Origin: an uncultured Clostridia bacterium
GTDB taxonomy: Bacteria; Bacillota; Clostridia; Christensenellales; Borkfalkiaceae
Length of the DNA: 37,230 bases
NCBI GenBank assembly: GCA_947626935.1
Contig: CANQUD010000001.1
Location: forward strand, 98,089-135,318
Direction of reading: 5' to 3'
Both the position numbers and the translations under genes were made by a program. Positions 10,417 through 36,048 of this stretch are shown in pieces (within the stretch, counting starts at the first letter, position 1; every line of letters begins with the position of its first letter). A model generated the notes under the pieces. That model did no database searches and was not told where the DNA came from. It saw only the letters and a list, made by a program, of their open reading frames with translations.

Positions 10417-10626
10417 CTATTCGTCCTTCAGTCCCGCGAGATAATCGATGGAAACATGAAAGAATTGCGCGATCGCGACAAGTCGGGAAAGGGTCGGCTC
10501 ACAGCGCCCGATCTCCCACAGACTGATGATCGATTTGCCAACGTCAAGCTCCTTCGCAAGCTGGATCTGACCGATGCTTTTTTCCTGCCGCAGAGCGCGG
10601 AGCCTTTCTCCGAATACATTGTCCAT
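10417..10626 (-). CDS. XRE-family transcriptional regulator (69 aa)
   Basis: A single-domain DNA-binding repressor of the Cro/CI type. ERLRALRQEKSIGQIQLAKELDVGKSIISLWEIGRCEPTLSRLVAIAQFF (in part: LAKELDVGKSIISLWEIGR) is a complete helix-turn-helix fold, and SIDYLAGLKDE is the usual C-terminal end. No sensor domain is attached. It is divergent from the zinc-ribbon membrane protein gene at 10719, and the 92-bp gap holds two palindromes that fit as its operators. No clear Shine-Dalgarno sequence precedes ATG 10626. It probably represses both itself and its neighbour; the ligand or partner is unknown. Confidence 0.88.
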   Translation of the reverse strand: MDNVFGERLRALRQEKSIGQIQLAKELDVGKSIISLWEIGRCEPTLSRLVAIAQFFHVSIDYLAGLKDE

Positions 10627-10633
10627 ACCAACA

Positions 10634-10655
10634 TTTTCCCATAATTATGGGAAAA
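10634..10655. promoter_or_regulatory. Operator O1 of the XRE/zinc-ribbon pair
   Basis: Perfect 22-bp palindrome with core TCCCATAATTATGGGA, eight bases upstream of the XRE start codon. Its centre is 29 bp from the centre of O2. Confidence 0.75.
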
Positions 10656-10659
10656 ATAC

Positions 10660-10688
10660 TTGACTTCCCAGTATTATGGGAGTATAAT
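10660..10688 (+). promoter_or_regulatory. Promoter of the zinc-ribbon gene with operator O2 in its spacer
   Basis: TTGACT (10660-10665), a 17-bp spacer and TATAAT (10683-10688). The spacer is filled by O2, TCCCAGTATTATGGGA (10666-10681), a near-palindrome sharing its arms with O1. A bound regulator would block RNA polymerase. Confidence 0.85.
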
Positions 10689-10718
10689 ATGACATAATCA
10701 TTCTCACGGAGGAAAGAA

Positions 10719-11075
10719 ATGTACTGTAAAAATTGCGGCAAAGAAATCAGCGACTACGCCTATGTCTGTCCGAACTGCGGCGTTAAGACGGACAGTTCCC
10801 TCTCGCAGGGAAATGCACCTGCCGAGAAAAAGACCAACACCCTTGCGATCGTCGGGTTTGTTCTTGCCTTTCTCGTTCCAATTGCGGGTCTCATCTGCAG
10901 CATCATCGGCAAAAAGCAATGCGCAGAGCGGAACGAAGGCGGCGCGGGGCTTGCGCTTGCGGGACTCATCATCAGCATCGCGGAAATGGCGATCGTGCTT
11001 CTGTACGTCATCATCGTCGTCGCGTTTGCGGGGAGTCTCATAAGCTCCATGGCGCTTCCTGTCACGCTTCTCTGA
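10719..11075 (+). CDS. Zinc-ribbon membrane protein, DUF4190-like
   Basis: A small protein (118 aa) of unknown function. The N-terminus is a zinc ribbon (YCKNCGKE ... YVCPNCG), likely cytosolic. A polar linker comes next, then two hydrophobic segments (about 43-65 and 83-108) joined by KKQCAERNEGGAG, as in DUF4190-type proteins. The promoter carries an operator in its spacer, and the divergent XRE gene is the obvious regulator, so it appears to be expressed conditionally. Ribosome binding site GGAGG six bases before ATG 10719. It is followed by a strong terminator, so it is a single-gene unit. Confidence 0.8.
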   Translation: MYCKNCGKEISDYAYVCPNCGVKTDSSLSQGNAPAEKKTNTLAIVGFVLAFLVPIAGLICSIIGKKQCAERNEGGAGLALAGLIISIAEMAIVLLYVIIVVAFAGSLISSMALPVTLL

Positions 11076-11081
11076 AAATTA

Positions 11082-11119
11082 CATCAAAATAGACGCCTTT
11101 GCGGGCGTCTTTTTTGATG
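11082..11119 (+). terminator. Terminator of the zinc-ribbon gene
   Basis: Stem CATCAAAA-T-AGACGCC paired with GGCGTCT-T-TTTTGATG around a 6-nt loop. There is one T-T mismatch and a run of six T. Confidence 0.9.
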
Positions 11120-11184
11120 ATAGAGATTAAGCGGTCGAGGCACGGTCAGAATGAGGCGATCGCAGAGAAAAAGGTCCCCGCAAC

Positions 11185-11220
11185 ACAAAATGTAAACCCT
11201 CGGTTTACATTTTGTAAACC
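11185..11220. promoter_or_regulatory. Operator array upstream of the 363-aa XRE gene
   Basis: A perfect 14-3-14 inverted repeat (11185-11215; arms ACAAAATGTAAACC and GGTTTACATTTTGT). An overlapping third half-site TGTAAACC follows at 11213-11220. It lies just upstream of the -35 box of the XRE gene, as expected for autoregulation. Confidence 0.75.
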
Positions 11221-11228
11221 GTAAAATC

Positions 11229-11257
11229 TTGCATATAGCGGCGTTTTATGATACAAT
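11229..11257 (+). promoter_or_regulatory. Promoter of the 363-aa XRE gene; predicts a leaderless mRNA
   Basis: TTGCAT (11229-11234), a 17-bp spacer and TACAAT (11252-11257). Only six bases separate the -10 box from ATG 11264, so transcription should begin at or next to the start codon. Confidence 0.7.
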
Positions 11258-11263
11258 GAACGT

Positions 11264-12355
11264 ATGAAAACCTATCAGAAACTGCAATTTTTAAGAAAAC
11301 AGCACAACATGTCGCAGGAAGAACTCGCCGACAAGCTCGGCGTTTCCCGTCAGTCCGTCTATAAATGGGAATCGGGCATCAACGATCCCGAACTTGAAAA
11401 GCTCAAGGCGATCTCCGAACTCTTCGGCGTCTCTTTCGATTATCTCTTGAACGATTCCATCGATTCCGAACAGACGTCTGCGCCGACTCAACCGACGAAA
11501 CAGAAATTCAGAAAGCCCTTCCGCTCCAAAAATTCGCTCCCGAGCGTGAAAGCGGAATCAGACCACGGATATGTCTCCGACTCTTACGGCAGAAACCGCC
11601 GCTCGGAAGAGATCTACCAAGCCGCCTCGGACGAATTCAACAAAGCCGTCGCCGCAAGAGAATATACGACCCACTTCCGTCTTCAGCCCGACATGCTCGT
11701 GGAATTTTTCTCCGACCAAAAAAGGGCGGTCATCGGATTTTTCTGGGACGGCGCGGAACAGTTTGTCTGTCCGTATGAGAACATCGTCACGCTCACCGTC
11801 AACAACAACGGTCCCTCTTCCTCTGTCGGTTCGCAGGATGTCGTCGGCGGGGTATTCGGTTCGGGACACGTCGGGATCGGCGTCGGGCGTGCACCCGTGA
11901 CGAGGGTCAATCCCCCTGTCCTGTATAAACTGGATATCGTCTACTATGCCAACGAGGGTAAGACGGAAAAATATACGGTCAACCTCACCTGCAGCAGGAA
12001 ATACGCCATTGAAAATGCGAAAGATGCGGATGTCGAATACCATGCCCTCATGAGCGCCCTCTCCGCGGCGACGGGCGATTCCTTGAATCAGATCTCTTCC
12101 GCCGTGACCGTGGCGAAGAACTTCTTGCAGCGGAACGAAACAGAGAATTTGCCCGAGATCGACTTCGAGGTCTGCTATCGGGAGATCGCGAAAGGCGAAC
12201 GCGCGGCAAGAGACCGCGCTACGAACATCCTTGCGATCCAAAAGGAAGAGGGAAAACATAATACGCTCGTCAAGCTGCTCACGTTCGGGTCGATCGGTGT
12301 TCTTGCCGTCCTCGCCGTCGTGCTGTTCATCTGGATGTACGCCGCCTCACACTGA
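11264..12355 (+). CDS. XRE-family regulator with C-terminal membrane segment
   Basis: A 363-aa protein with an N-terminal helix-turn-helix (about 5-60; MSQEELADKLGVSRQSVYKW) and a middle region I do not recognise. The middle has a strand-rich part around VEFFSDQKRAVIGFFWDG and a Gly-rich turn GGVFGSGHVGIGVG. One transmembrane segment lies near 334-356 (LLTFGSIGVLAVLAVVLFIW). The layout suggests a membrane-tethered regulator sensing an envelope or lipid signal; that is inference. The promoter has three TGTAAACC half-sites and lies so close to ATG 11264 that the mRNA is probably leaderless; no Shine-Dalgarno sequence is visible. It converges on rarA. Confidence 0.78.
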   Translation: MKTYQKLQFLRKQHNMSQEELADKLGVSRQSVYKWESGINDPELEKLKAISELFGVSFDYLLNDSIDSEQTSAPTQPTKQKFRKPFRSKNSLPSVKAESDHGYVSDSYGRNRRSEEIYQAASDEFNKAVAAREYTTHFRLQPDMLVEFFSDQKRAVIGFFWDGAEQFVCPYENIVTLTVNNNGPSSSVGSQDVVGGVFGSGHVGIGVGRAPVTRVNPPVLYKLDIVYYANEGKTEKYTVNLTCSRKYAIENAKDADVEYHALMSALSAATGDSLNQISSAVTVAKNFLQRNETENLPEIDFEVCYREIAKGERAARDRATNILAIQKEEGKHNTLVKLLTFGSIGVLAVLAVVLFIWMYAASH

Positions 12356-12368
12356 TTTTCTTCCATAC

Positions 12369-12400
12369 GAAAAGACACGGTTGCTGCCGTGTCTTTTTTC
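12369..12400. terminator. Terminator between the XRE gene and rarA
   Basis: Stem GAAAAGACACGG / CCGTGTCTTTTTTC with loop TTGCTG. It has T runs on both strands and serves two convergent genes. Confidence 0.9.
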
Positions 12401-12416
12401 GTTCATTGCATTTCGT

Positions 12417-13721
12417 TCAGTGTTTCCCCTTTCTTTCGCGGAGTTTTTTGATCTCCGCCTCGAATCCCTTGTCGGAAGGATAGTAAAAAACGGAGTCCTT
12501 CAGAGAATCGGGCAGGTATTGCTGTTTCACCCAGCCGCCGTAATTGTGGGGATACTTATATTTGGCGCTCTCCGCCTTCATCTCCTTGCTTCCGAAAGAA
12601 TTGTCCCGCAAGTACTTGGGAATGTCGTCGTCCTTGCTCTCCTTGGCAGCCCTGATCGCGGCATCTTTCGCCATGACGACGGAGTTGCTCTTTTCCGTCT
12701 CGCAGACATAGATGATCGCCTCCGCAAGGGGCAGAAATCCTTCGGGCGCCCCCATATTTTGAAACGCCGTGAGCGCCGAAGTCGCGACGACGAGCGCTCT
12801 CGGGTCGGAAAGTCCCACGTCCTCGGCGGAATGTGCGATGAGACGGCGGAACACGAGGAGCGGATCACACCCTCCCTCGATGAGGCGGAAGGCATAGTAG
12901 AGCGCCGCGTCGGCGTCGCTTCCGCGGAGAGACTTGCAGAAGGCGGAAAGAATGTCGTAATATAAGTCCTCATTATAGCTCAACGCCTTGCGCTGAATGG
13001 ACTGCTCTGCGTCGGAGAGAGTGACATGGACCTTCCCCTCTCCGTCGGGCGGGGTCGTCAGGACGGCAAGCTCCAAGGCGTTGTAGGCGGTCCGAAGGTC
13101 CCCCGAGGCGACGAAGGCGATGTGGTCGAGCGCGTCGTCGTCAACGGTCGCCTGATAGCTCCCGAGACCCTTCCGCTTGTCACCGAGCGCCTTGACGAGC
13201 GCCGCACGGATCTCCCCTTCGGAGAGAGGGAGAAATTCGAACACACGGCAGCGGGAGACGATCGCGGGCGTCATGGAAGCGTACGGATTTTCCGTTGTGG
13301 AGCCGATGAAGAGAATCGTTCCCTGCTCGATGGCGGGAAGGAGAGAATCGGACTGCGTCTTGTTGAAGCGGTGACATTCGTCCAGCATCAGATAGGTGCG
13401 TTTCCCGTACATTTTGAGGTTGTTCCGCGCCGTATCGACCGCTCTCTTGACATCCGCGACGCCCGAGGAGACGGCGTTCAGCTTGATGAAGTCCCCGTTC
13501 GTCTGGGCGGCGATGATGTTTGCGAGCGTCGTCTTTCCGCACCCCGGGGGACCCCAAAAGATGCAGCTACCCAGTCTGTCAAGCGAGATCGCCCGACGGA
13601 GAAGGGACCCCTCGGAGACGATATGGCTTTGACCGACGAAGTCCTTGAAAGTCGACGCACGCATGCGTTCGGCAAGCGGCTTCGCCTTTTCTTCATTGTC
13701 GTTAAAATCGAAGAGATCCAT
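12417..13721 (-). CDS. rarA: Replication-associated recombination protein A (AAA+ ATPase)
   Basis: RarA/MgsA acts at stalled replication forks and belongs to the clamp-loader branch of AAA+ ATPases. Visible: an N-terminal PLAERMRASTFKDFVGQSHI region, Walker A GPPGCGKTT (57-65), Walker B LMLDECHRF (111-119), the sensor GSTTENP (140-146) and the C-terminal GYYYP-like end reading VFYYPSDKGFE. The 434-aa length is normal. ATG 13721 shares its first base with the stop of the upstream patatin gene (TAATG) and has GGGGGA just before it, so the two are translationally coupled. A longer reading upstream would run through the patatin gene and is rejected. Confidence 0.95.
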   Translation of the reverse strand: MDLFDFNDNEEKAKPLAERMRASTFKDFVGQSHIVSEGSLLRRAISLDRLGSCIFWGPPGCGKTTLANIIAAQTNGDFIKLNAVSSGVADVKRAVDTARNNLKMYGKRTYLMLDECHRFNKTQSDSLLPAIEQGTILFIGSTTENPYASMTPAIVSRCRVFEFLPLSEGEIRAALVKALGDKRKGLGSYQATVDDDALDHIAFVASGDLRTAYNALELAVLTTPPDGEGKVHVTLSDAEQSIQRKALSYNEDLYYDILSAFCKSLRGSDADAALYYAFRLIEGGCDPLLVFRRLIAHSAEDVGLSDPRALVVATSALTAFQNMGAPEGFLPLAEAIIYVCETEKSNSVVMAKDAAIRAAKESKDDDIPKYLRDNSFGSKEMKAESAKYKYPHNYGGWVKQQYLPDSLKDSVFYYPSDKGFEAEIKKLRERKGKH

Positions 13722-14518
13722 TATTCCCCCAAAAGCGCCTGAATTTTTGCAGCCTTGCGTTTGCCGAGTTCGTACCCCTTTTGATAGGCGAACTCGAGAT
13801 CCTTGAATTTGTACTGGTCCATTGCACCGAGTTTCGGCTCCAGCCACAGAGAGACATGGTCGCGTGACAGCCGTTTGCGGCGGGTCTGTCGGGTGTCCAT
13901 GATGTCGATGACGCGGAGCACGGTGTTGAGGAGCCTGCCCGTGGGTTCCCGATCCATGATGAGGTTGCCGAGAACGTCGACCGCGACGATGACCTCCGCT
14001 CCCATTTCATGGAGTTCCCGCGTGGGGACACGCTCGGTGATACAGCCGTCGATGAGCATTTCATACTTCCCGAACGCGGCGGGCGTAAAGACCCCGGGGA
14101 TGGATGCGGAAGCGAGCGCGGCGTCGATGACGTTGCCTTCCTTCAAAAGAACGGTCTTGCCCTCGACGAGGTCGGTCGCGACGCAGGCGAAGGGGATCGG
14201 GAGAGAGTCGAACGTACGCTCCCCGCCCATGAGATCGAGGACGATCTTCCTTGCCTTTTTCATGCGCATGAGACCGTTTTGTTTCAGGGGAGAGAGATTG
14301 ATGTAGGCGATGTCCGCCATCTTCAATTTTCTGACCCCGTCTATCATTTTTTCGGGAGAAACGCCCGCGCAGTAAAGTCCGCCGACGATGGCGCCCATCG
14401 AACAGCCCGTCACGAAATCTGGGGTTATCCCCGCTTCGCCGAGCGCTTGCAGAAAGCCGATGTGCGCGACGCCCCTTGCGCCGCCCGCGCCCAGGGCAAG
14501 TCCCAATGTTTTTTTCAT
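13721..14518 (-). CDS. Patatin-like phospholipase family protein
   Basis: A Ser-Asp dyad acyl hydrolase of the patatin/RssA type, probably acting on phospholipid or other acyl esters; the substrate is unknown. Evidence: the oxyanion loop GAGGARG, the nucleophile motif GCSMG, and the DG of the dyad in LIDGCITERVP. The 265-aa length is typical of the short bacterial members, and there is no signal peptide. ATG 14518 has GGGGGA five bases upstream. It is paralogous to the gene at 30949-31788 (shared pattern LGLALGxGGAxGxAHxGxL). The stop overlaps the rarA start; the divergent gene is ylbJ-like. Confidence 0.88.
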   Translation of the reverse strand: MKKTLGLALGAGGARGVAHIGFLQALGEAGITPDFVTGCSMGAIVGGLYCAGVSPEKMIDGVRKLKMADIAYINLSPLKQNGLMRMKKARKIVLDLMGGERTFDSLPIPFACVATDLVEGKTVLLKEGNVIDAALASASIPGVFTPAAFGKYEMLIDGCITERVPTRELHEMGAEVIVAVDVLGNLIMDREPTGRLLNTVLRVIDIMDTRQTRRKRLSRDHVSLWLEPKLGAMDQYKFKDLEFAYQKGYELGKRKAAKIQALLGE

Positions 14519-14548
14519 ATTTGTCCCCCGTTCGACGTATGTTTTAGC

Positions 14549-15475
14549 ATGGTCACAAGAAAAAACTTCGGCGCGGTCCTCGCGGCAGTCCCGATCGTGT
14601 TTGCGATGGTCTGCCTGCTCTCTTCCCCCACAAGATACGGAAAATGTATCATGGACGGCATCTCTCTTTGGGCGGTGTGTGTCCTTCCCGCGACCTTCCC
14701 CTTTCTCTTTCTGACCGCCCTCTTCACCAAGCTTTCCCTCTATGAAAGGCTCTCCAAGAGGCTTTCTCCCCTCTTTTCGAAGGCTTTTCGGGTGTCGGGA
14801 GCGGGCGGATGCGCCGCGCTCCTCTCCGCGCTCTCGGGCTATCCCGTGGGTGCGAGAACGGTTTTCGATCTCCGTGAGAGCGGAAAGCTCGACGAGAATG
14901 AGGTATTCCGCCTTGCCTGCCTTGCCTCGACGACGGGACCGATGTTCCTCGTGGGCGCCGTCGGGAGCGGCATGTTTTCCTCTCCCGCGCTCGGCTGGAT
15001 GATGCTCGCGTGTCACTTCCTCGGCGTCCTATCGGTCTGCTTTGTGATGGGACGGTTCGGAAAGAAGCCGAAAATGTTTCTCTCCCCCGCGCCGAAGGGG
15101 GAAAACGCGCTCTATGACAGCCTGTACAACAGTGTGATCTCCATTCTCTGCGTGGGCGGAGCGATCGCGCTCTTCTACGCTTTTTCGGAGATGATCTTGA
15201 GTTTTTTGCCCCCCATGTCCCCATTTTGGGAGGGATGTGTGCGCGGGCTTCTGGAGATGACAGCGGGGTGCAAGAGCTTTTCCGCCGAAAAAAGTCCGCT
15301 CTCGGTCGCCGCATGCTGCTTTTTGACGACGTTCGGGGGAATGTGCGTCCTCATCCAACAGATCGCCTTCCTCTCCCGCGCGGGCGTCAAGCCTCTCCCC
15401 TTCGTCGCCGTGAAATTGTTACAGGCGATCGTTTCGGGGATCGTGTGCTTCGTTGCGGCGGTTTTTATGCTTTAA
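14549..15475 (+). CDS. ylbJ: YlbJ-like sporulation integral membrane protein
   Basis: A polytopic membrane protein of the YlbJ/nucleoside-recognition (gate) family; in Bacillus YlbJ is needed for heat-resistant spores. The 308-aa sequence has about eight hydrophobic segments, starting with FGAVLAAVPIVFAMVCLL, and carries the typical CVLPATFPFLF and LSALSGYPVGARTV signatures, then TTGPMFLVGAVG. ATG 14549 is the only plausible start, since the 14 codons before it contain no start. No Shine-Dalgarno sequence is visible in the 30-bp divergent gap with the patatin gene. Its presence suggests a spore-forming ancestor, not proof of sporulation. Confidence 0.82.
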   Translation: MVTRKNFGAVLAAVPIVFAMVCLLSSPTRYGKCIMDGISLWAVCVLPATFPFLFLTALFTKLSLYERLSKRLSPLFSKAFRVSGAGGCAALLSALSGYPVGARTVFDLRESGKLDENEVFRLACLASTTGPMFLVGAVGSGMFSSPALGWMMLACHFLGVLSVCFVMGRFGKKPKMFLSPAPKGENALYDSLYNSVISILCVGGAIALFYAFSEMILSFLPPMSPFWEGCVRGLLEMTAGCKSFSAEKSPLSVAACCFLTTFGGMCVLIQQIAFLSRAGVKPLPFVAVKLLQAIVSGIVCFVAAVFML

Positions 15476-15497
15476 CGAAGCATAAGTGGGCATTTTT
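15466..15497 (+). terminator. Weak terminator candidate between ylbJ and pheA
   Basis: Perfect 7-bp AT-rich stem TATGCTT / AAGCATA with the ylbJ stop codon in its loop. A six-T run follows seven bases later. Confidence 0.35.
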
Positions 15498-16349
15498 TCA
15501 GAGATATGCGCCGATGAGCTTGTACTGGTCGCACCGTTCGGCGACCTCGAGGAGCGCTGTCTGCACCCGTTCGGTCGCGATGTCGCCCGCAAATTCGATG
15601 AAGAAACGGTATTGCCCGAAGGTGTCCTTGACGGGACGGGACTCGATGCGCGTCAGATTGAGGCTGTAGCGCTGGAAGATTTTCAACAGTCCCAAAAGCT
15701 CCCCGGGGCGGTGGGCGCAGACGGCGCAGAGAAAGACCATGGCGCTGTGCGTCGCACGGGAGACACTTCCCCGTCTCACCCGCAAGAAGCGCGTGTAATT
15801 CTGCTTGTTGTCGGCAATGTTTTCGTCGGAGAGGACGATCCCCTCCCGCTTCACATGCGATCCGACGATGCCCGCCGTCTCGTCGTCGAGAAGTCCCAGA
15901 CTTTCGGCGGTCGATGAGGTCGCGCGGAGGATCGCCGCGGGGAAATTCGAAAACAGATACTCCGAACATTGTCCGAGCGCCTGTTCATGCGAACAGATAT
16001 ACTTGATATTTTCCCGCTTCGCCCCCTCTTTCATGGCGATGCGGTGATCGATGCGGAGCATGGACTCCTCGTCTCCGAAGATGTCCTCGCACGCGAGAAG
16101 GTCGAGAACGGGCACGATGCCGCCGTTGAGGGAATTTTCGACGGGAAGCACGGCATAGTCGGTCTCCCCGCGGAGAAGTTTTGCGACGGACTCCCGAAAG
16201 CTGCGGCAGAGGACGATCTCTTGTTCCTTGCAGAGCGCCTCGGCGGCGAGCTGGGAATAGCTCCCCTCGGGTCCCAAACAGCTCACTTTGCCCGTTCTTT
16301 CCCCAAGGTCTGCCGCCCGTTCCGCCTCGGTTGCATAGAGTTTAGCCAT
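15498..16349 (-). CDS. pheA: Prephenate dehydratase with ACT domain
   Basis: Converts prephenate to phenylpyruvate in phenylalanine synthesis. The catalytic domain (about 20-195) shows GPEGSYSQLAAE, LPVENSLNGGI and the key TRF (186-188) in NYTRFL. A regulatory ACT domain (about 203-280) follows, with RPGELLGLL and ESRP (236-239), the usual phenylalanine-binding motifs, so feedback inhibition by phenylalanine is likely. The first 19 residues are not catalytic, and no chorismate mutase domain is fused, unlike E. coli PheA. ATG 16349, with AAGGAG six bases upstream. It lies nine bases after aroF in the same operon. Confidence 0.95.
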   Translation of the reverse strand: MAKLYATEAERAADLGERTGKVSCLGPEGSYSQLAAEALCKEQEIVLCRSFRESVAKLLRGETDYAVLPVENSLNGGIVPVLDLLACEDIFGDEESMLRIDHRIAMKEGAKRENIKYICSHEQALGQCSEYLFSNFPAAILRATSSTAESLGLLDDETAGIVGSHVKREGIVLSDENIADNKQNYTRFLRVRRGSVSRATHSAMVFLCAVCAHRPGELLGLLKIFQRYSLNLTRIESRPVKDTFGQYRFFIEFAGDIATERVQTALLEVAERCDQYKLIGAYL

Positions 16350-16358
16350 AAATTCTCC

Positions 16359-17387: not shown

Positions 17388-17862
17388 GGGGATCTCTCCT
17401 GAGTATGAATTCATAGACTTCCTTCGGGACGTAATGCTCAAAGGGCGTTCCGAAGGAGATCGCGTTCTTGACGAGGGTGGATGAAATGTGCGTGTGCTGC
17501 TGTTCGGCGGGAAGATACAGCGTGACAAGTTCCGCCATCAGATCCTTGGACGCATAGAAATCGTCCGTCTCATAGGCGCAGTCCACGGCGTTCCTGACCC
17601 CGCGCACGTAGAAGGGCGTGTTCTCCTTCCGAAGCAGGGAGACGATGACGCCGTCCCAAATCAGGACGCGGACGCGAGGGTCCTTCCGATAGACCTTTCC
17701 GATCATCTCCGCCCGCTCCTCTGCCGTAAACATCGTGTGCTTGGACCTGTTTGCGGCAACGGCGACGACGACTTCATCGAATAGGGTCAGACTTTTTTCG
17801 ACGGTATCGGCATGTCCGACGGTAAAGGGGTCGAACGTGCCCGCAAAGATACATTTTTTCAA
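17380..17862 (-). CDS. coaD: Phosphopantetheine adenylyltransferase
   Basis: Makes dephospho-CoA from phosphopantetheine and ATP, the fourth step of CoA synthesis. The 160-aa nucleotidyltransferase shows AGTFDPFTVGH (7-17, ATP-binding HxGH-like), the loop FYVRGVRN and the late THISSTLVK. It starts at TTG 17862, giving the family-typical MKKCIFAGTFDP; AGGAG lies six bases upstream. TTG overlaps the rsmD stop as TTGA. The nearby ATG at 17854 is in another frame. rsmD-coaD is a very common Gram-positive gene pair. Confidence 0.97.
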   Translation of the reverse strand: MKKCIFAGTFDPFTVGHADTVEKSLTLFDEVVVAVAANRSKHTMFTAEERAEMIGKVYRKDPRVRVLIWDGVIVSLLRKENTPFYVRGVRNAVDCAYETDDFYASKDLMAELVTLYLPAEQQHTHISSTLVKNAISFGTPFEHYVPKEVYEFILRRDPHV

Positions 17863-19063: not shown

Positions 19064-19075
19064 GTTTCACCCCGC

Positions 19076-19089: not shown

Positions 19090-19096
19090 ATATTCC

Positions 19097-29825: not shown

Positions 29826-30952
29826 TTCAGCTCTCCGTTGCGCCTGCAAAGTTCTTCCACCGTGTCGCCGCCGAGACGCTCGGAGACGACTGCGGCGAGT
29901 TCTGCAGCGACCGCCGCTTCGCAGACGGTCTCGAAGGCGAGGATCGCACAGACGTCGCTGCGCTCGGAAGCCGCCGAAGCGGGCAGAAGCGTGTCCGTGT
30001 CGACGGTCCGAAGTCCCCTCATGAGGGTCGGGATGGGCTTCATCGCGGCGCGGAGAACGATCTCTTCGCCGTTGCTCATTCCCCCTTCGATGCCGCCAGC
30101 ACGGTTCGTCTTTCTGAAGTAGCCGAGCGTTTTGTCACGGTAAATTTCATCGTGGACTTCGCTCCCGCGGAGCGCGGAAGCGGAAAAGCCGAGACCGACT
30201 TCCACGCCCTTGACCGCCTGAACGCTCATGAGCGCGGCGCAGAGGCGGGCGTCGAGCTTTTCTCTGTACGTCATACAGCTCCCGTAGCCGCTCTTGAGAC
30301 CCTTGATGCGGAGTTCGGCGACGCCGCCGAGGGTGTCCCCTTCCGCCTTGCAGGCGTCGATGAGACGGCAGGCTCTCTCTTCCGCGTCACGGTCGAGCAT
30401 GCCCAAAAGTTCGGAGCGATGAGATATTTCTTCAAAGGAATATTGCTTGTCGTCGGAGACCGTTCCGACGCTTTTGACATAGCCTGCAATTTCGATGCCG
30501 AGCGCGGCGAGGAGCTGTCTGCAGATCTCCCCCGCGGCGACGCGGACGGCGGTCTCACGGGCGGAAGCGCGTTCGAGAATGTTCCGCGCGTCATTCTGTC
30601 CGAATTTCAGCATGCCCGAAAGGTCGGCATGCCCCGGGCGGACCTTGGAGAGGCGGCGCTTTTCCGTATCGCAGCCCTCGGGCGCCATACATTCTTCCCA
30701 GTTCCCGTAGTCGCGGTTCCGAACGGCGAGCGTTATGGGACTGCCGAGGGTGACACGATTTCTGACGCCCGAAAGGATCTCCGCCCTGTCGGACTCGATC
30801 TTCTGCCTCTCTCCCCTGCCGTAACCGCTCTGGCGGAGCGCAAGGCGGGCGTCGATGCGGCTCAAGTCAAGGTTCAATCCTGCGGGGATCCCCTCGAGAA
30901 TGGCGAAAAGCCCCTTCCCGTGCGATTCCCCCGCCGTCGTCAATCGTATCAT
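29822..30952 (-). CDS. aroC: Chorismate synthase
   Basis: Converts EPSP to chorismate, requiring reduced FMN. The 376-aa protein begins MIRLTTAGESHG, the standard signature with His11, followed by RQSGYGRGERQKIE, RPGHADLSG, ERASARETA and the late GGMSNGEEI, with the MKPIPT region. ATG 30952 is chosen: GGGGGAG lies six bases upstream and the ATG overlaps the patatin stop (ATGA). An ATG 15 bases earlier lies before this ribosome binding site. Its substrate must come from an EPSP synthase gene (aroA) outside the window. Confidence 0.97.
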   Translation of the reverse strand: MIRLTTAGESHGKGLFAILEGIPAGLNLDLSRIDARLALRQSGYGRGERQKIESDRAEILSGVRNRVTLGSPITLAVRNRDYGNWEECMAPEGCDTEKRRLSKVRPGHADLSGMLKFGQNDARNILERASARETAVRVAAGEICRQLLAALGIEIAGYVKSVGTVSDDKQYSFEEISHRSELLGMLDRDAEERACRLIDACKAEGDTLGGVAELRIKGLKSGYGSCMTYREKLDARLCAALMSVQAVKGVEVGLGFSASALRGSEVHDEIYRDKTLGYFRKTNRAGGIEGGMSNGEEIVLRAAMKPIPTLMRGLRTVDTDTLLPASAASERSDVCAILAFETVCEAAVAAELAAVVSERLGGDTVEELCRRNGELK

Positions 30953-31788
30953 TTCTTTCTCCCCCATGCGGAGATCTTGCTCTCGATCTCCGCGATCTGT
31001 TCTTTGGCGGCTGCATAGCCGACTTCATACATCGCATCCATGGAAGCCCTGTCGACACTCGTCGCCTTGAAGGCGCCGAGGTCGGGACGGATCATCACGT
31101 CTGCGGCGGCATAGCCGCGGCTCTTGTTGTCCTCTAAATATTTGACGGGCATCATTGCCGTGATCGCGTTCCCGACGAGACGGGAAATGGCGCTCTTCTC
31201 CTCATCGGGACGGTTGAAGGCAGAGAGGTCGATCCCGATGACGAAGTCGGCGCCGAGCTGCTTGCAATAGTCTGCGGGAATGGCGTCCGAAAAGGCGCCG
31301 TCGTAGTAGCGGCTTTCCCCGATATCCACCCCTCTGAAGAAGGGCGGGATCGCGGCGGAAGCCGTCAGCGCCCTTGCGAGCTTCCCTTCCTGCAAGAGCT
31401 TGCTCTGATTGCTCTCCCCGTCGGTGACGGCGACGGCGAAGGGCAAGGGAAGAGAGGAAAAGTCGCCGTCGAGGTAGTTCTCGAGGAAGGCTTCGGCAAA
31501 TCCCATGTCCGAAAAGGGCTTGAGATTCTTGGAAAACTCCTTGCGGTTGAGGTTCTCGACGATGCCCACCATGTCGGCTGAGGAATAGCCCTTTGCATAG
31601 AGTGCGCCGACGATCCCGCCGATCGAGGCGCCCGTGATGACGGCAAAGGAAAGCCCCGCCTCCTCGAACGCCTTCAATGCGCCGAGGTGCGCCATGCCCT
31701 TTGCTCCGCCGCTTCCGAGCGCGAGTCCGAGCTTTATCTTCGGTTTTTTCTTCCCAAAGAGGGACTTCAGGCGGGAAAAGAAACCCAT
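30949..31788 (-). CDS. Patatin-like phospholipase family protein (second copy)
   Basis: First gene of the aro operon. The 279-aa Ser-Asp dyad acyl hydrolase has a basic amphipathic start (MGFFSRLKSLFGKKKPK) that could contact the membrane. The oxyanion loop GSGGAKG, the nucleophile motif GASIG and the DG of the dyad in RYYDGAFSDAIP follow. It is paralogous to 13721-14518. Its stop overlaps aroC (ATGA), so it is co-translated with chorismate genes, for no obvious metabolic reason. ATG 31788 has GAGG four bases upstream. Substrate unknown. Confidence 0.87.
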   Translation of the reverse strand: MGFFSRLKSLFGKKKPKIKLGLALGSGGAKGMAHLGALKAFEEAGLSFAVITGASIGGIVGALYAKGYSSADMVGIVENLNRKEFSKNLKPFSDMGFAEAFLENYLDGDFSSLPLPFAVAVTDGESNQSKLLQEGKLARALTASAAIPPFFRGVDIGESRYYDGAFSDAIPADYCKQLGADFVIGIDLSAFNRPDEEKSAISRLVGNAITAMMPVKYLEDNKSRGYAAADVMIRPDLGAFKATSVDRASMDAMYEVGYAAAKEQIAEIESKISAWGRKK

Positions 31789-32166
31789 ATTGCCTCACTG
31801 ATTACGGTTTTTGGGGGGGAAGAGAAATGCCTTGGCTCCCCTCGGGGTCCCCGCAAAAAGACAACGTATTTTGCGGGGTGGTTTAGGGGAGCTGTCGAGC
31901 GAAGCGAGACTGAAGGGTTTCAAAACCCCTTTCCCCTCGCAAGCTCGGGGACTGTCTCGGACGGGTAGAGACCCGTCCTCGGTCACCGTTCGCGCGGGAT
32001 AATGCGCTCACTCACCGCAAAACGCAGCGCACAGCACACCGTGCTGATGCGCAAGAATTGCGTTTTGCGACCCTAAAAGGGGCAGCGAGGGAACACTGCG
32101 GTGACCCACCCCCTGTCGCGATGCAACATCCCCTCGGAGGGGGTAGAAGATTGCCCCAAGTTTGAA
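31789..32166. other. 378-bp gene-free region rich in hairpins
   Basis: No convincing gene. It lies between the end of the PhnP-like gene and the start of the aro operon and must hold the aro operon promoter, but no clear -35/-10 pair is seen. Several inverted repeats occur: CCCCGCAAAA / TTTTGCGGGG (31849-31878), GGACGGGT / ACCCGTCC (31959-31978), a 54-bp structure at 32016-32069 and CCCCTC-GGAGGGG near 32130. A segment GTCGAGCGAAGCGAGAC recalls intergenic repeat families of Clostridia. Confidence 0.6.
32016..32069. repeat. 54-bp two-tier inverted repeat
   Basis: Outer arms CGCAAAACGCA and TGCGTTTTGCG (11 bp, perfect) enclose inner arms GCGCACAGCAC and GTGCTGATGCGC (one bulge) around loop ACC. 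It would fold strongly as RNA or single-stranded DNA. It looks like a REP-type palindromic unit rather than a terminator, since no T run follows. Confidence 0.6.
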
Positions 32167-33000
32167 TTATATCTCGATTTCCATTCCGTCGAAGGCGGCG
32201 AGGACGCCGTATTCCCGTTCGGCACTGGAGAGCGCTTCCGTCGTCGGGCGGGCGTTGTGGGAAAAGTGTGTGATGACCTTTTTTGTGTGTCCGTCCGCAA
32301 GCCCGATCTCCTCGAGACGGGACATCGTCCGCATGTTCTCGTCGAGTCCCATGTGACGGGCGAAGGCGTCCGTTTCGGCAAACAAAAACGTGCAGTCGAG
32401 GGTGACGAGGTCGACGGGCTTCCCGCCGATCTCCGCGAGGTAGCGGACAGAATCCTCGGGGAGTCTGCCCGTATCGGTCAGGTGCAGGACCCGCTTGTCC
32501 CCCTTTTCGATGAGAAAGAGGAGCGGTTCCTCCGAGGAGTGATTGGCGAGCAGGGTATAGACGCGGTATGCGCCGAATTCGATCTCCTCAAACGCACCGA
32601 TTGGACAGAGACGGATGTTCTCCGCGACATCGGGCTTCATCTCGCGGGCGGTGCATTCGCCGAACACGTCCATGACTTCCTGATTGCCGTAGATGGAGAG
32701 AGTTGGCTCCGTCATGTTCCCCGCATACTTATAGCCGCGAAGAATGAAGTCGTGCGCATAGAAGTGGTCCATATGGGAATGGGTGACGAGGAGATATTTG
32801 AGCGCGGAAAGATCGATCCCCCGCGCATGGGAAAAGGCGTCGGGCGGAAAGTCGATGCCGAGTTCCCCGTCAATGAGGATCTGGGAACGGGAGCGGATCT
32901 CCCTTCCCCCTCTTTGGCGGACGCCCTTGCAGTATTCGCAGTTGCAAAAGAGTGCGGGGATCCCCTCCGCCGCTCCTGTACCGAGATAGATGAGTTTCAT
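32167..33000 (-). CDS. PhnP-like metallo-beta-lactamase fold hydrolase
   Basis: A 277-aa metal-dependent phosphodiesterase-like protein. The active-site motif is THSHMDH (73-79) with a further His83, and later metal ligands lie in LHLTDTG and near HFSHN. An N-terminal CxCxxC cluster (CNCEYC, 19-24) followed by IRSRSQILIDG matches PhnP, which splits 5-phosphoribosyl 1,2-cyclic phosphate; other cyclic phosphodiesters are possible. No phosphonate genes are present here. ATG 33000 has only a weak AGGG before it. Last gene of the pepQ-efp-dtd operon. Confidence 0.82.
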   Translation of the reverse strand: MKLIYLGTGAAEGIPALFCNCEYCKGVRQRGGREIRSRSQILIDGELGIDFPPDAFSHARGIDLSALKYLLVTHSHMDHFYAHDFILRGYKYAGNMTEPTLSIYGNQEVMDVFGECTAREMKPDVAENIRLCPIGAFEEIEFGAYRVYTLLANHSSEEPLLFLIEKGDKRVLHLTDTGRLPEDSVRYLAEIGGKPVDLVTLDCTFLFAETDAFARHMGLDENMRTMSRLEEIGLADGHTKKVITHFSHNARPTTEALSSAEREYGVLAAFDGMEIEI

Positions 33001-33026
33001 GATGCCCTGTCGGAATGCCTGTCCTT

Positions 33027-33464
33027 TCAAGCCTCGTATACGATCGTGACGGGTCCGTCGTTCGTCTGTTCGATCTTCATGTCGGCGCCGAAAATGCCGT
33101 AACGGACGGGGACGCCGTGCGATGCGAGACATTTCCCCGCCGCCAGATAGAGCGGTTCCGCCTTTTCGGGACGCTCGGCGTCCGTGAAGGAAGGACGGTT
33201 CCCCTTTCTCGCGTCGCCGTACAGCGTGAACTGGGAGACGAACAGAACTTCCCCGCCGACATCGAGGACGGACAGATTCATTTTTCCCTCACTGTCCTCA
33301 AAGATACGCAGGTTTGCGATCTTCTCCGCGCATTTTTGCGCCTGTTGCAGGGTGTCGCCGACACGAACGCCGAAATAAACGACAAGCCCGCGTCCGATCT
33401 CGGAGACGGGCTGACCGTTTACGGTAAGCTTCGCGCACAATACCCGCTGCGCGACAAATTTCAT
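33027..33464 (-). CDS. dtd: D-aminoacyl-tRNA deacylase
   Basis: Removes D-amino acids (and glycine) mischarged onto tRNAs. The 145-aa protein carries the Dtd N-terminus MKFVAQRV and the two active-site motifs VSQFTLYGD and NDGPVT at the expected places, with GNRPSF between them. ATG 33464 has AGGGG upstream. It lies 58 bp after efp and 26 bp before the PhnP-like gene. Complete. Confidence 0.96.
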   Translation of the reverse strand: MKFVAQRVLCAKLTVNGQPVSEIGRGLVVYFGVRVGDTLQQAQKCAEKIANLRIFEDSEGKMNLSVLDVGGEVLFVSQFTLYGDARKGNRPSFTDAERPEKAEPLYLAAGKCLASHGVPVRYGIFGADMKIEQTNDGPVTIVYEA

Positions 33465-33522
33465 AGAATTTCCCCTTGCCGCACCGAGGCGGCTCGGTCC
33501 CTTTCCTCCGAAAAGACGGTCC

Positions 33523-34086
33523 TCAAACGCGGGACATGTATTCGCCCGTTCTCGTGTCGATGCGGATGGTGTCGCCCTCGTTGACGAACATGGGGACTTG
33601 GAAGGTGGCGCCCGTCTCGACCTTTGCAGCCTTGGTGACGTTGGTCGCCGTGTTGCCCTTGACGCCCGGCTCCGCCTCGATGACTTTGAGTTCGACGAAG
33701 TTCTCGGGTTCGACGGAGAATGCCTTGTCATAGAGGAAACGGACGGTGACGATATCGTTCTCGCGGATATAGCGGAGCGCGTCCTCGACCTGTTCATGAT
33801 TGAGGGGAGTCATGTTGAACTCGTCGTCCATGAAGTAGTAGAACTCGCCGTCGTTGTAGGAATAGGTCATCTTCTTGGTCTCGACCTGCGCCGTCTCGAG
33901 CTTGGTCGAGGGGTTGAAGGTCTCGTCCGAGAGGACCTGTCCCGTGACGACGTTCTTTAAGGTCGTGCGGACGAACGCCGCGCCCTTGCCGGGCTTGACG
34001 TGCTGGAATTCGACGACGGTATAGACGCCGCTCTTGTACTCGAACGTAGTGCCCTTTCTGATATCGCCTGCCATGATCTGTGCCAT
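33523..34086 (-). CDS. efp: Elongation factor P
   Basis: Binds ribosomes stalled at proline runs and promotes peptide bond formation. The 187-aa protein has the three beta-barrel domains, including domain I loop [10 protein letters not shown] with Lys34 at the tip contacting the peptidyl-transferase centre, and the C-terminal [20 protein letters not shown]. Modification enzymes for this lysine are not in the window. ATG 34086 has AAGGAG eight bases upstream. It follows pepQ by 17 bp, the usual Firmicute pairing. Confidence 0.98.
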
Positions 34087-34103
34087 AAATGTATCTCCTT
34101 TGA

Positions 34104-35156
34104 TTACAAAACCAATAAATTTTTCTGTGTTTTTCCCATGAAGGAATGTGTTCTTCCGTCCTTCATGTACATGCTGTCCTCGATGCGGATGCCGAGCTTG
34201 CCTGCGATGTAGACGCCCGGTTCATCCGAAAAGACCATGCGGTCCCCGATGACCTGTTCGGAGCGCGGGGAGAGCGTGGGATACTCGTGGATCTGCAGCC
34301 CGATGCCGTGCCCGAGAGAGTGGGTGAAGTAGGGATCCAGCCCGAACTTTGCAAGATAGTTCCTTGCGATCGCGTCCCCTTCCTTCCCCGTCATGCCTGC
34401 GACGAGTTCTTCCCGCACGGCGTTGTGGGCGGCAAGGACGATGTCGTATGCCTTTTGGAATTCCGCATGCTTCCCGTCGTCGCCGAAGAGGAAGGTGCGG
34501 GTGATGTCCGAACAGTACCCTTCGACCTTGCAGCCGAAATCGATGAGGACAGGGTCGCCGAACTTCAACCGTACATTGCCCGTTTCGTAGTGGGGAACGC
34601 TGCCGTTTGCCCCGAAGGCGCAGATCGTGTCGAAGGACGTGCCGCTTGCGCCGCCGCGGCGCATGTTGTATTCGAGAAGGGCGGCGACTTCGTTCTCCGT
34701 CATCCCCTCTTTGATCGCGGGAAGGAGCTGTAAAAACGCGTCCTCGGCGATCTCGCAAGCCCTTTGGATGAGAGCAAGTTCCCCGTCCGACTTATAGAGC
34801 ATGGCGTCGCGCAGGGCGGGCATGCAATCGACAAGTTCAAAGCTCTTTTTGAGGGACTCGAACGTCGCCGCGTCGGTGAAGGGATAGGGAATGCCGAGGG
34901 TGTGTTTGCCCGCAAGGAGTTCCATCGCCTGCGGTCGGGAGCCTGCGACGACCTCGACGGCGGAGCCTTTCAGCTTCTTTTCCGCCGCTTCGAAATAGCG
35001 GGGATCGGCGACGAATTTACAGCCGCTTTCATCGAGGATCACATAGCCGTCCGTCGAATAGAAGCCCGTCAGGTATCTCCGCAAGAAATCACATTCGAGA
35101 TAGACGGCGTCCGCATGGGAATTTTCGTATATTCTGTGCCATTTCTCCGTCAACAT
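34104..35156 (-). CDS. pepQ: M24 family aminopeptidase (Xaa-Pro peptidase type)
   Basis: A dinuclear metal peptidase that removes residues next to proline. An N-terminal creatinase-like domain (about 1-115) is followed by a pita-bread domain (about 120-350) with all five metal ligands: [28 protein letters not shown] and IRIEDS. 350 aa. The start ATG 35156 lies six bases after the -10 box and has no ribosome binding site, so the mRNA should be leaderless; an in-frame GTG at 35162 is an alternative. First gene of the efp operon. PepQ versus PepP/YqhT substrate class is not settled by sequence. Confidence 0.9.
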
Positions 35157-35162
35157 AAACAC

Positions 35163-35191
35163 ATTATACCAAATTCGGGTGTAATAGTCAA
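35163..35191 (-). promoter_or_regulatory. Promoter of the pepQ-efp-dtd operon; predicts leaderless mRNA
   Basis: Minus strand TTGACT (35191-35186), a 17-bp spacer and TATAAT (35168-35163). The start codon ATG 35156 begins after only six bases, so initiation of transcription should fall at the start codon. Confidence 0.85.
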
Positions 35192-35217
35192 CGGTTTTTT
35201 ATAAGAAAAGGGTGAAT

Positions 35218-35436
35218 TTAGCCGTCCCGCCCTACCAAATCGTCCAAGGTCACGTCAAAGAGGTCTGCAAGGGCGATAAGCTGCGAAATGGAAGGTTCAC
35301 TGTATCCCGTCTCCCAATGGGATACCGATTTGAACGTCGTATGCATGAGCTCGGAAAGTTCCCTCTGCCCCAAGCCCTTTGCGATGCGAAAGTTTTTTAG
35401 ATTTCTCGGGAAATCTGACTTTTTCACTTCATTCAT
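35218..35436 (-). CDS. XRE-family transcriptional regulator (72 aa)
   Basis: A single-domain helix-turn-helix repressor: LKNFRIAKGLGQRELSELMHTTFKSVSHWETGYSEP (in part QRELSELMHTTFKSVSHWE), ending in FDVTLDDLVGRDG. ATG 35436 is chosen over an in-frame TTG 18 bases upstream because it gives the normal N-terminus; neither has a good ribosome binding site. It is divergent from the membrane-protein gene at 35531, with two palindromes in the gap. The arrangement parallels the pair at 10417-11075, so it probably represses itself and its neighbour. Confidence 0.86.
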   Translation of the reverse strand: MNEVKKSDFPRNLKNFRIAKGLGQRELSELMHTTFKSVSHWETGYSEPSISQLIALADLFDVTLDDLVGRDG

Positions 35437-35450
35437 ACGATAAATTATTA

Positions 35451-35461
35451 TCAAAATTTGA
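35451..35461. promoter_or_regulatory. Operator O1 of the second XRE pair
   Basis: TCAAAATTTGA, a 5-1-5 palindrome 15 bases upstream of the XRE start. Its centre is 29 bp from the centre of O2. Confidence 0.65.
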
Positions 35462-35470
35462 GATTTTTAC

Positions 35471-35499
35471 TTGGCATTCTCAAATTTTGAGAGTATAAT
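35471..35499 (+). promoter_or_regulatory. Promoter of the membrane-protein gene with operator O2 in its spacer
   Basis: TTGGCA (35471-35476), a 17-bp spacer and TATAAT (35494-35499). The spacer holds O2, TCTCAAATTTTGAGA (35478-35492), a perfect 7-1-7 palindrome. Confidence 0.85.
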
Positions 35500-35530
35500 G
35501 CATGTAATTCTAACTTTTGGAGGTGGGTTT

Positions 35531-35734
35531 ATGGCACTCAATTTTGATCGCTCCGATCAAGCGGCTGTGTTAAATCGGCTTGCCAAACGGCGCAACGTTT
35601 TTACGGTTTTATTCGTGATCTGTCTTGCGCTCGGTTCGGTCGCAGGTTTAGTCCCTGTGATCGGTTGGTATCTGTCTGTCGCGCTATTTGTCCTTTGGGG
35701 CGTCTTTGCGGGGTGCCGAATTATTCCAGATTAA
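35531..35734 (+). CDS. Small membrane protein, or N-terminal half of a frameshifted gene
   Basis: 67 aa of unknown function. A short charged start (MALNFDRSDQAAVLNRLAKR) precedes two hydrophobic segments (about 22-41 and 44-62). GGAGG lies seven bases before ATG 35531, and the strong operator-bearing promoter is directly upstream. It ends GCRIIPD just as another frame opens with further membrane segments, so it may be the front half of a 172-aa, four-segment protein broken by loss of one G in the GGGG run at 35710-35713. Its regulator is probably the divergent XRE protein. Confidence 0.65.
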   Translation: MALNFDRSDQAAVLNRLAKRRNVFTVLFVICLALGSVAGLVPVIGWYLSVALFVLWGVFAGCRIIPD

Positions 35735-36048
35735 AGAATCTGAATGCGGAATATGAAGCGAAATTGGAAGAGCTGACCGAACCCAAGAAACCGTTTCGTA
35801 CTACCCTCATCGGCATCATTCTGATCGCCATCATCGTCATCTCCGTCGTGAGAGCTCTCATTGTTCCCGACGCAGAATGGGTAGCATGGGAAATCGCCGT
35901 TTGCATTGTAGTCCCAATTTTCTCGGTCCTTCTCATGGTCATTCAATGGAGAAAATACAAAAAGAGATCTGACGCATACAACGATTCTATCGATCATATG
36001 CAACAGATCCTGAAAAAAGCCATTGAACTCCGAAAAGAGTCCGATTAA
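35713..36048 (+). pseudogene. C-terminal half of the frameshifted membrane protein, or separate overlapping gene
   Basis: In the -1 frame relative to the gene before it, this stretch encodes about 111 aa: a polar linker (SRLKNLNAEYEAKLEELTEP), two membrane segments (TLIGIILIAIIVISVVRALIV and WEIAVCIVVPIFSVLLMVI, shown to 21 at most in the sequence) and a charged tail. No ATG or clear ribosome binding site opens it. A GTG at 35713 overlapping the previous gene by 22 bp could start a separate coupled gene. Reading through with one added G gives a continuous AGVPNYSRLKN join. Sequencing error, true frameshift and slippage cannot be told apart here. Confidence 0.5.

Follow-up and report, generated by a model that had tools for sequence, protein, structure and literature searches.

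A 37,230-nt stretch of DNA from an uncultured Clostridia bacterium of the Borkfalkiaceae (hereafter the window) contains two short XRE-family genes, each standing back to back with a gene of membrane-protein type. Small XRE repressors that lack a sensing domain abound, often with no known target. A preliminary description had claimed that the two pairs share one operator geometry, which raises the question of whether this likeness is a coincidence or the mark of a modular family.

The first pair comprises XRE1 and a divergent partner. XRE1 (10417–10626, minus strand) is a predicted 69-aa standalone HTH_3 repressor (Pfam HTH_3, E = 8.6e-12), whose Pfam matches in the profile search are HTH families only and whose closest solved structures are 3op9 and the P22 c2 repressor. 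Partner 1 (10719–11075, plus strand) is a 118-aa protein with a zinc ribbon (MYCKNCG) and a DUF4190 domain, both above the Pfam cut-off (Zn_Ribbon_1, DUF4190), and three transmembrane segments predicted from hydropathy. Its promoter was read directly as a -35 element TTGACT (10660–10665, plus strand), also listed by the pattern search, and a -10 element TATAAT (10683–10688, plus strand). The putative operator O2, TCCCAGTATTATGGGA (10666–10681, centre 10673.5), lies within the 17-bp spacer (10666–10682), with 6 of 8 palindrome pairs matching, and is conserved across the TCCCA operator class (82 aligned loci). The putative operator O1, TCCCATAATTATGGGA (10637–10652, centre 10644.5), is a perfect palindrome, with 11 perfect pairs about its centre, and the predicted -10 of XRE1, GAAAAT (10633–10638, minus strand), ends 6 nt before the XRE1 ATG. 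A search of the whole window for TCCCANNNTTATGGGA with up to two mismatches found no sites besides the two in pair 1 (4 strand-matches, with 0.5 expected). In the whole genome, TCCCANNNTNATGGGA occurs without mismatch only at these two sites, and with one mismatch at seven further places.

The second pair contains XRE2 (35218–35436, minus strand), a predicted 72-aa standalone HTH_3 repressor (E = 4.4e-13); with 49.5 bits, against 45.4 bits for XRE1, both pass the curated HTH_3 cut-off of 23. The partner promoter again reads directly, as TTGGCA (35471–35476, plus strand) and TATAAT (35494–35499, plus strand), and its 17-bp spacer (35477–35493) holds the putative O2, TCTCAAATTTTGAGA (35478–35492, centre 35485, 7 of 8 pairs). 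The putative O1, TATCAAAATTTGAGA (35449–35463, centre 35456, 6 of 8 pairs), has a degenerate left half, TATCAA, that recurs in relatives. The best -10-like hexamer for XRE2, GATAAT (35447–35452, minus strand), ends 10 nt before the ATG and thus departs from the exact 6-nt form; the XRE2 mRNA is predicted to carry a short leader at most. What had been described as a membrane-protein gene here is not an intact gene. A 67-aa piece with two predicted transmembrane segments (35531–35734, plus strand) matches the start of the first of two genes in relatives, and the matching frame is lost after GVFAG. A second piece in another frame (35713–36048, plus strand) corresponds to the C-terminal portion of the second of these genes. 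In the relatives (loci L311 and L312), the counterparts of both pieces form two genes in tandem. By this comparison, what stands as the partner in pair 2 is the scarred remains of an operon of two genes.

Re-reading of the positions bore out the common geometry: in both pairs a short XRE gene diverges from a membrane-type gene, a palindrome sits within the 17-bp spacer between -35 and -10, and a second palindrome lies toward the XRE gene at a centre distance of 29 bp. Direct comparison also upheld the claim that the two operator sequences are unrelated. To ask how far this layout recurs, we used a sample of 80 listed short XRE genes taken from eight genomes of the same genus and chosen by an HTH_3 match and an open frame of at most 130 aa, not by geometry. 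The sample includes everything listed for G117, G123 (minus one gene already included), G140, G111, G042, G152 and G151, and two of six for G153, with some stretches ended by contig ends. A spacer operator with a second copy was present at 41 of the 80 genes, where a matched shuffle null gave 6.4. The geometry of the two pairs is more than coincidence because so many of these genes carry the operator repeat, and related genomes thus hold the many further instances that the preliminary description anticipated. The repeat was likewise found at 11 of 26 short XRE genes of the bacterium's own genome (null 1.5), and at 24 of 29 XRE1 relatives and 24 of 26 XRE2 relatives, own loci included (nulls 2.1 and 4.3). 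In the named set, which is the best 80 of 225 relatives and hence biased to close ones, 71 of 80 loci carried it (null 3.4). These named relatives are metagenome-assembled genomes whose titles include uncultured Clostridia bacterium, Candidatus Gallimonas, Candidatus Ornithoclostridium and uncultured Christensenellaceae.

This loose call was failed by 39 of the 80 genus-sample genes, 15 of the 26 own-genome genes and 7 of the 55 protein-search loci (L058, L059, L064, L072, L074, L078 and L100), and the strict 29-bp form was present at 17 of 80 and 4 of 26, respectively. Of the 154 modules with a 17-bp spacer, 107 have the XRE ATG 33 or 34 bp from the partner -35, and the centre distance is 29.0–29.5 bp in 44 of 48 measurable loci among the best 80 relatives. 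Outside the family, a class sample of 46 genes (every listed place in genomes other than the own one whose open frame reached at most 130 aa, except one with internal stops) gave 16 loose calls (null 7.2) and, read off the listing, one strict call (L340). Elsewhere in the phylum, XRE1 relatives matched in 178 of 299 genomes; 29 such loci, none from the own genome, comprised 9 loose calls, 13 with the promoter only and 7 with neither, at scattered positions. Among them, L296 shows a clean palindrome in the spacer but lacks the second copy. The XREs join at 50% identity into a single cluster of 152, so common ancestry accounts for part of the shared layout.

Within single genomes, the operators of different modules are unrelated to one another. 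Among 93 non-redundant XREs, the correlation between protein and operator distances, after correction for the remainder of the protein and taken without a permutation test, was 0.26–0.34 over the recognition helix and the next loop, with one window at 0.22, and ranged from -0.01 to 0.22 elsewhere in the protein. The operators appear to vary most closely with the recognition helix and the loop that follows it, and of the putative sequence-specific binding of the palindromes by the XREs it is this covariation that the sequences show. The pair 1 promoter–operator pattern, composed after the relatives' loci had been seen and allowing at most one mismatch, occurred in 17 of 151 genomes with one match each, and the reversed control gave none. 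All but one of these 17 matches adjoin an XRE1 protein-search match, and the pattern together with the XRE/partner pairing was found in five genera of the family. Together, the relatives, the pattern search and the covariation argue for the modular family proposed earlier, each member with its own XRE and its own operator.

The start of the repressor genes has a signature of its own. A -10 hexamer ends exactly 6 nt before the XRE ATG in 108 of 171 modules (9.9 after shuffling), a set whose members are not independent, as its parts overlap in loci or species; this position suggests that many module repressors have leaderless mRNAs, and the transcripts of XRE1 and many of its relatives probably begin at the AUG. 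None of 155 partner starts and one of 38 hand-picked gene starts of the window showed the signature. It was also present at 22 of 70 non-module XREs and is therefore not tied to the modules; it is rare in the operator class of XRE2 (3 of 14) and occurred at 2 of 46 listed genes in the class sample outside the family. In the named set, further offsets within the conserved operator also peak for the hexamer. A Shine–Dalgarno-like 5/6 match stands at 102 of 171 XRE starts (named set, 64 of 71; genus sample, 9 of 41), which we tentatively put down to resemblance between the operator letters and the motif.

The partners are often, but not always, predicted to be membrane proteins or lipoproteins. 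In the own genome and the genus sample, 16 of 21 partners of strict-form modules have a predicted transmembrane segment or signal, compared with 12 of 28 partners of other modules and 52 of 135 control genes. What survives of the claim that the partners are membrane proteins is a leaning within the strict 29-bp form; the partners also include a LytTR response regulator and soluble proteins. The partners sort into 65 clusters; their ORFs were admitted only with a Shine–Dalgarno match, which is thus a feature by construction. Zinc-ribbon partners recur beside TCCCA, TCTCA, TCTTAC (L070) and other operators (L137, L140). Across 73 loci with mechanically chosen flanking and partner ORFs, the linkage between XRE1 and the zinc-ribbon gene is kept despite varied flanks, with 43 flanking-ORF clusters and the same partner cluster (cluster 0) in 53.

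We consider it likely, on the evidence of sequence, that each pair works as a private switch in which the repressor governs one divergent target, and the best reading of the family is a set of standardised, orthogonal and self-limiting switches of this kind. XRE1 and XRE2 consist of a DNA-binding domain alone, each encoded back to back with one target; in both pairs O2 fills the spacer of a near-consensus target promoter and O1 lies just before the repressor start. An XRE dimer at O2 would exclude RNA polymerase from the target promoter, and a dimer at O1 would curb the repressor's own synthesis. Repressor production seems weak, as no good -35 was seen upstream by eye and the mRNA is probably leaderless in many modules. 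Once the repressor fell below a threshold, the target, often a small membrane protein or lipoprotein and in pair 1 the zinc-ribbon/DUF4190 membrane protein, would be strongly expressed. Since the divergent promoters overlap, firing of one should impede the other, and the switch may therefore have two states. The family seems to consist of many orthogonal copies in which operator and recognition helix were altered jointly.

Other readings of the layout have to be weighed. CylR2 is a short standalone XRE protein. It works with the small membrane protein CylR1 at overlapping divergent promoters (PMC3709268), and, as proposed for that pair, the partner here might itself be part of the sensor, its membrane protein or zinc ribbon capturing the XRE in a positive feedback. 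The persistent pairing of XRE1 with its zinc-ribbon partner and the recurrence of such partners with several operator classes fit this idea. However, direct capture cannot hold for all modules, as the same type of XRE module also precedes lipoproteins, a LytTR regulator and soluble proteins of small size, and one genome, G007, keeps partner 1 and O2, with an altered -35, where the repressor side has no ORF above 50 aa starting within 120 nt. We regard capture as rather unlikely. The Cyl system differs in layout: CylR1 and CylR2 are encoded together on one side and regulate a separate operon that diverges from them (PMC3709268), whereas both pairs here are divergent. CylR2 was absent from the solved-structure matches at E 0.001. 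G007, a single case with its altered -35, may also speak against a toxin–antitoxin or immunity pair, in which a harmful partner would be held in check by an antitoxin-like XRE. The small membrane partner suits such a pair, the XREs match NCBIfam antitoxin families below cut-off, and they match PADLOC HTH models of several families (HTH_VI, RmrA, capH, Control_protein), a result that other HTH_3 proteins could give too. Against it stand the 65 partner clusters and the PADLOC results for the partners: no family matched partner 1 or the 67-aa piece, and the piece at 35713–36048 gave weak matches only (PDC-M48A, 0.00024; RTasSLATT, 0.006). This explanation seems to us very improbable.

The modules could also be remnants of prophage immunity, a CI-like repressor with an early promoter and no present host function. 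In the immunity regions of lambda and P22, operator specificity differs between relatives, as it seems to among the modules. Phage CI/Cro regions further share the HTH fold (P22 c2), a repressor beside its target and palindromic operators, and the XREs resemble P22 c2 and, below cut-off, RstR phage repressors. Distant XRE relatives are present in plasmids and in phages (152 phage records, all below 60% identity), some genus modules precede small proteins that by eye may be phage genes, and in phage PY54 the cI repressor mRNA, like that of cro, is leaderless (PMC4488713). The modules differ from phage CI in being one short protein, with no C-terminal domain found, one dedicated chromosomal target and several copies per genome. 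A viral contig collection, searched with the pair 1 pattern alone, held no exact promoter–operator match, that pattern with its pairing recurs in five genera of the family, and XRE1 remains with the zinc-ribbon/DUF4190 gene. Phage descent suits the origin of the modules better than their present function, and as an account of them it is unlikely. Chance, by which strong promoters and AT-rich repeats would mimic operators, deserves next to no credence. A spacer palindrome is by itself a weak criterion: among 100 listed of 196 own-genome promoters (TTG-N20-TATAAT), 10 spacers scored at least 4 where 3.4 were expected, and pair 2 ranked first and pair 1 tied with several; we relied instead on repeat, position and covariation. 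Foreign operators attained 11/17 in 306 of 2759 trials (shuffled, 313 of 3920). Yet the matched nulls lie far under the observed counts, the reversed pattern gave no match, and operator and recognition helix covary. On these counts chance is untenable for the whole family; single weak modules (e.g. L024, L031, L035) may be due to it.

The private-switch reading also has close parallels. The C proteins of restriction–modification systems have a small XRE-type fold. C.Csp231I regulates itself at its promoter through two inverted repeats, the operators OL and OR, and has a leaderless mRNA (PMC4824078); two putative operators are seen here, with a leaderless mRNA predicted in exact form for XRE1, not XRE2. 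C proteins control a linked endonuclease and methylase and can act as activators too (PMC4824078), whereas the modules have a divergent target, often a membrane protein, and one operator inside its promoter spacer. Pfam and the relatives gave no endonuclease or methylase domain in the partners (10719–11075 and 35531–36048), which are membrane-protein-like instead. In tetR/tetA, overlapping divergent promoters and two operators about 30 bp apart serve a low-level repressor and one membrane-protein target; TetR has a different fold and a ligand-binding domain. The layout is otherwise alike, and the leaderless mRNA predicted for XRE1 has a counterpart in that cited for Tn1721 tetR in PMC3293720. 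XRE1 and XRE2 (69 and 72 aa) match HTH_3-type families only, with no ligand domain. Among titles and abstract openings of the open-licence literature, we found no description of this repressor/partner layout.

It is tempting to speculate, though we hold this to be quite unlikely, that a lineage of gut Clostridia uses a standardised set of orthogonal two-state switches to diversify the envelope proteins of their cells, with the ribosome as sensor. As no sensing domain is present in the repressors and many of their mRNAs appear leaderless, the common input would be the translation state, read as the translation efficiency of leaderless mRNA. New switches would arise by copying, with recognition helix and operator changing together to give each copy a new specificity. 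Because the repressor mRNA is predicted to be leaderless, what lowers the repressor can be put to a direct test. With position, operator and target legible from sequence, the modules would offer a natural set of seemingly orthogonal pairs for the XRE recognition code, and they provide a predicted regulator for uncharacterised membrane proteins and lipoproteins of uncultured gut bacteria.

Two divergent XRE/membrane-protein gene pairs lie in the window, at 10417-10719 (pair 1) and 35218-35531 (pair 2). The regulators XRE1 (10417-10626, minus strand) and XRE2 (35218-35436, minus strand) are 69 and 72 aa long, and each consists of one HTH_3-type domain and nothing more. Partner 1 (10719-11075, plus strand) is a 118-aa zinc ribbon/DUF4190 protein with three predicted membrane segments. 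Both pairs have a good partner promoter whose 17-bp spacer is occupied by a palindrome, the predicted operator O2, and a second palindrome, O1, lies toward the XRE gene with its centre exactly 29 bp away. The operators of the two pairs are unrelated in sequence, and the shared geometry claimed in the preliminary description is borne out. The sole other palindrome of such strength in the window (8 perfect pairs) is at 34655, within an ORF at 34104-35162. The next HTH gene, at 11264-12355, encodes an HTH_3 domain followed by a C-terminal part with a hydrophobic stretch at its end; GTAAACC and GGTTTAC repeats directly before it (11184-11220), not of the 29-bp form, are perhaps its own operator.

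We loosely called a short XRE gene a module when the spacer of its partner-direction promoter recurs at no fewer than 11 of 17 letters within 15-36 bp, and strictly when the repeat offset is 28-32 and the promoter 30-38 bp from the XRE ATG. For the loose-call null, the spacer was shuffled and the promoter choice repeated identically. Above the cut-off, the 1.67-Mb host genome yields 26 HTH_3 matches, 13 of which have such a promoter within 100 bp; 11 are loose modules. Four, namely L023, L025 and both pairs of the window, are strict. In another three the spacing is narrower (L032; L027, adjoining a LytTR response regulator; and L038, adjoining an LRR_5 lipoprotein), and the loose calls L024, L031 and L035 are doubtful. 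Further instances, sought in this genome and its relatives, were found: the genus sample (80 genes among the matches listed in eight same-genus genomes, selected for an HTH_3 match and for the length of the open frame, and for nothing else) contains 41 loose modules against 6.4 under the null, and 17 strict ones. Loose and strict calls number 24 and 20 of 29 XRE1 relatives, 24 and 17 of 26 XRE2 relatives (the window's own counted), and 71 and 67 of 80 named contigs (best 80 of 225 relatives), though these sets and the host genome share loci or species and the counts are not independent. Short XREs of the same class outside the family gave 16/46 loose calls (null 7.2) and 1/46 strict.

When loci were aligned at the partner -35, a common frame emerged in four operator classes (82, 9, 13 and 10 loci): O1 comes first, then a linker rich in A and T, then CTTGAC, O2 and TATAAT. 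The XRE ATG lies 33 bp from the partner -35 in 82 and 34 bp in 25 of the 154 modules with a 17-bp spacer, and the centre distance is 29.0 in 38 and 29.5 in 6 of 48 measurable cases in the named set (from the best 80 of 225 relatives). A second group has operators about 18-24 bp apart. Three modules of one genome (L152, L154 and L162 in G152), with operators 21-22 bp apart, stand before genes of small proteins that contain cysteines, of the CxxC...CEYWE type; these may be phage genes.

By eye, recognition helix and operator change together: GKSxISLWE goes with TCCCA, SKGIISLWEN with TCTTAC, KTVSHWETGY with TCTCAA, SKMAISHWESGH with GTAACA, and TQRKVSYWE with TAGACA. Among 93 non-redundant XREs out of 144 with clear operators, corrected for the remainder of the protein, the protein-operator distance correlation peaks over the recognition helix and next loop (up to 0.34, coefficients alone) and ranges from -0.01 to 0.22 elsewhere in the protein. 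Operators inside one genome resemble each other about as little as shuffled sequences do: the mean is 7.2-8.0 of 17 against 7.2, except for the two modules of G153 (11 of 17).

A pair-1 promoter-operator pattern, composed after the relatives' operators were known and searched without the protein, occurs once each in 17 of 151 family genomes, from 5 of 18 genera; the reversed pattern had no match in the 151. Sixteen matches are XRE1 loci of the protein search. The seventeenth (L265, G007:C17) keeps a zinc-ribbon/DUF4190-like partner and O2, its -35 is altered, and the nearest 120 nt on the repressor side contain no start of an ORF above 50 aa; judged by its sequence, it is an orphaned switch, a partner-1-type gene with no XRE ORF found beside it. 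Because TCCCANNNTNATGGGA occurs without mismatch in the host genome solely at both pair-1 sites, the XRE1 regulon is probably the pair-1 intergenic region alone; one mismatch admits 7 other places. A half operator, TTATGGGAAAA, at 10373-10383 between the XRE1 end and the start of a minus-strand ORF (8911-10338), is a possible weak second target and is absent from the full-site search results of this genome.

A candidate leaderless signature, a -10-like hexamer (at least 4/6 with A2 and T6) whose end is exactly 6 nt upstream of the XRE start codon ATG, is present in 108 of 171 modules (shuffles, 9.9): 50/71 named, 23/41 genus, 16/24 XRE1, 13/24 XRE2 and 6/11 host-genome modules. Control counts were 1/38 for window gene starts and 0/155 for partner starts. 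By operator class it occurs in TCCCA (61/87), TCTTAC (8/12), TAACA (9/11) and others (27/47), and is rare in TCTCA, the class of pair 2 (3/14). XRE1 carries it; the best hexamer of XRE2 is 10 nt before the ATG. In the named set, further offsets within the conserved operator also peak. The signature is not confined to modules: 22/70 non-module XREs, at several loci, also carry it, so in this bacterial family leaderless mRNAs may extend to XRE genes more widely. It is present in 30/80 genus-sample XREs (among the matches listed) and in 2/46 outside the family. Published work describes leaderless regulator mRNAs for the cI gene of lambda and the tetR gene of Tn1721 (as cited in PMC3293720), C.Csp231I (PMC4824078) and PY54 cI and cro (PMC4488713), and a -10 adjoining the ORF as common in Deinococcus-Thermus (PMC12340547).

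Partner ORFs, taken by Shine-Dalgarno match, were found for 155/171 modules and form 65 clusters, 55 of them single members. The largest is of partner-1 type (75 members, 71 with the zinc ribbon), chiefly behind TCCCA operators and behind others too. A transmembrane segment or signal is predicted for 123/155 partners versus 52/135 control ORFs, which flank the XRE on the side away from the partner; the large TCCCA class dominates the partner count (control in the named set, 35/68). In the host genome and genus sample (the latter among the matches listed), such a segment or signal is predicted for 16/21 partners of strict modules and 12/28 of the other modules. The XRE1-class pair seems to stay together amid changing surroundings: at 73 loci the mechanically picked flanking ORFs fall into 43 clusters, and at 53 of them the partner belongs to cluster 0. 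Elsewhere in the host genome, a 97-aa XRE (L026, G000:C19:27199-27363) diverges from a 350-aa ORF, DNA methylase-like by eye, and is possibly a restriction-modification controller; two divergent HTH genes (L031/L037, G000:C9:32396-32891), one long with a C-terminal part LexA/S24-like by eye, are perhaps a prophage immunity region.

The membrane-protein gene described for pair 2 does start at 35531 (plus strand) behind the operator, but it is not intact. Loci L311 and L312 of relatives have two genes in succession: window positions 35531-35734 match the start of the first up to GVFAG, and 35713-36048, in a different frame, the end of the second. The 67-aa piece is present in 3/151 family genomes, the host counted. 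By this comparison partner 2 is damaged or rearranged. An internal deletion fits as the origin of its pieces; a fault in the assembly, which comprises 55 contigs, is a possible alternative. By eye, an operator of the pair-2 kind was not seen upstream of L311, and at L079 an XRE2-type module is followed by a protein resembling the second gene alone.

The arrangement fits a model in which the XRE repressor would block the partner promoter from O2 and limit its own synthesis from O1, and the overlapping promoters could form a two-state switch. Since these repressors are without a ligand domain, candidate inputs would be the amount of repressor, proteolysis, the state of leaderless translation, or the partner capturing the repressor. 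Taken singly, XRE repressors, divergent self-regulation, paired operators and leaderless repressor mRNA are all known already. A limited literature check found no description of their combination, a fixed frame repeated with varied specificities across one family's genomes and often aimed at envelope genes.
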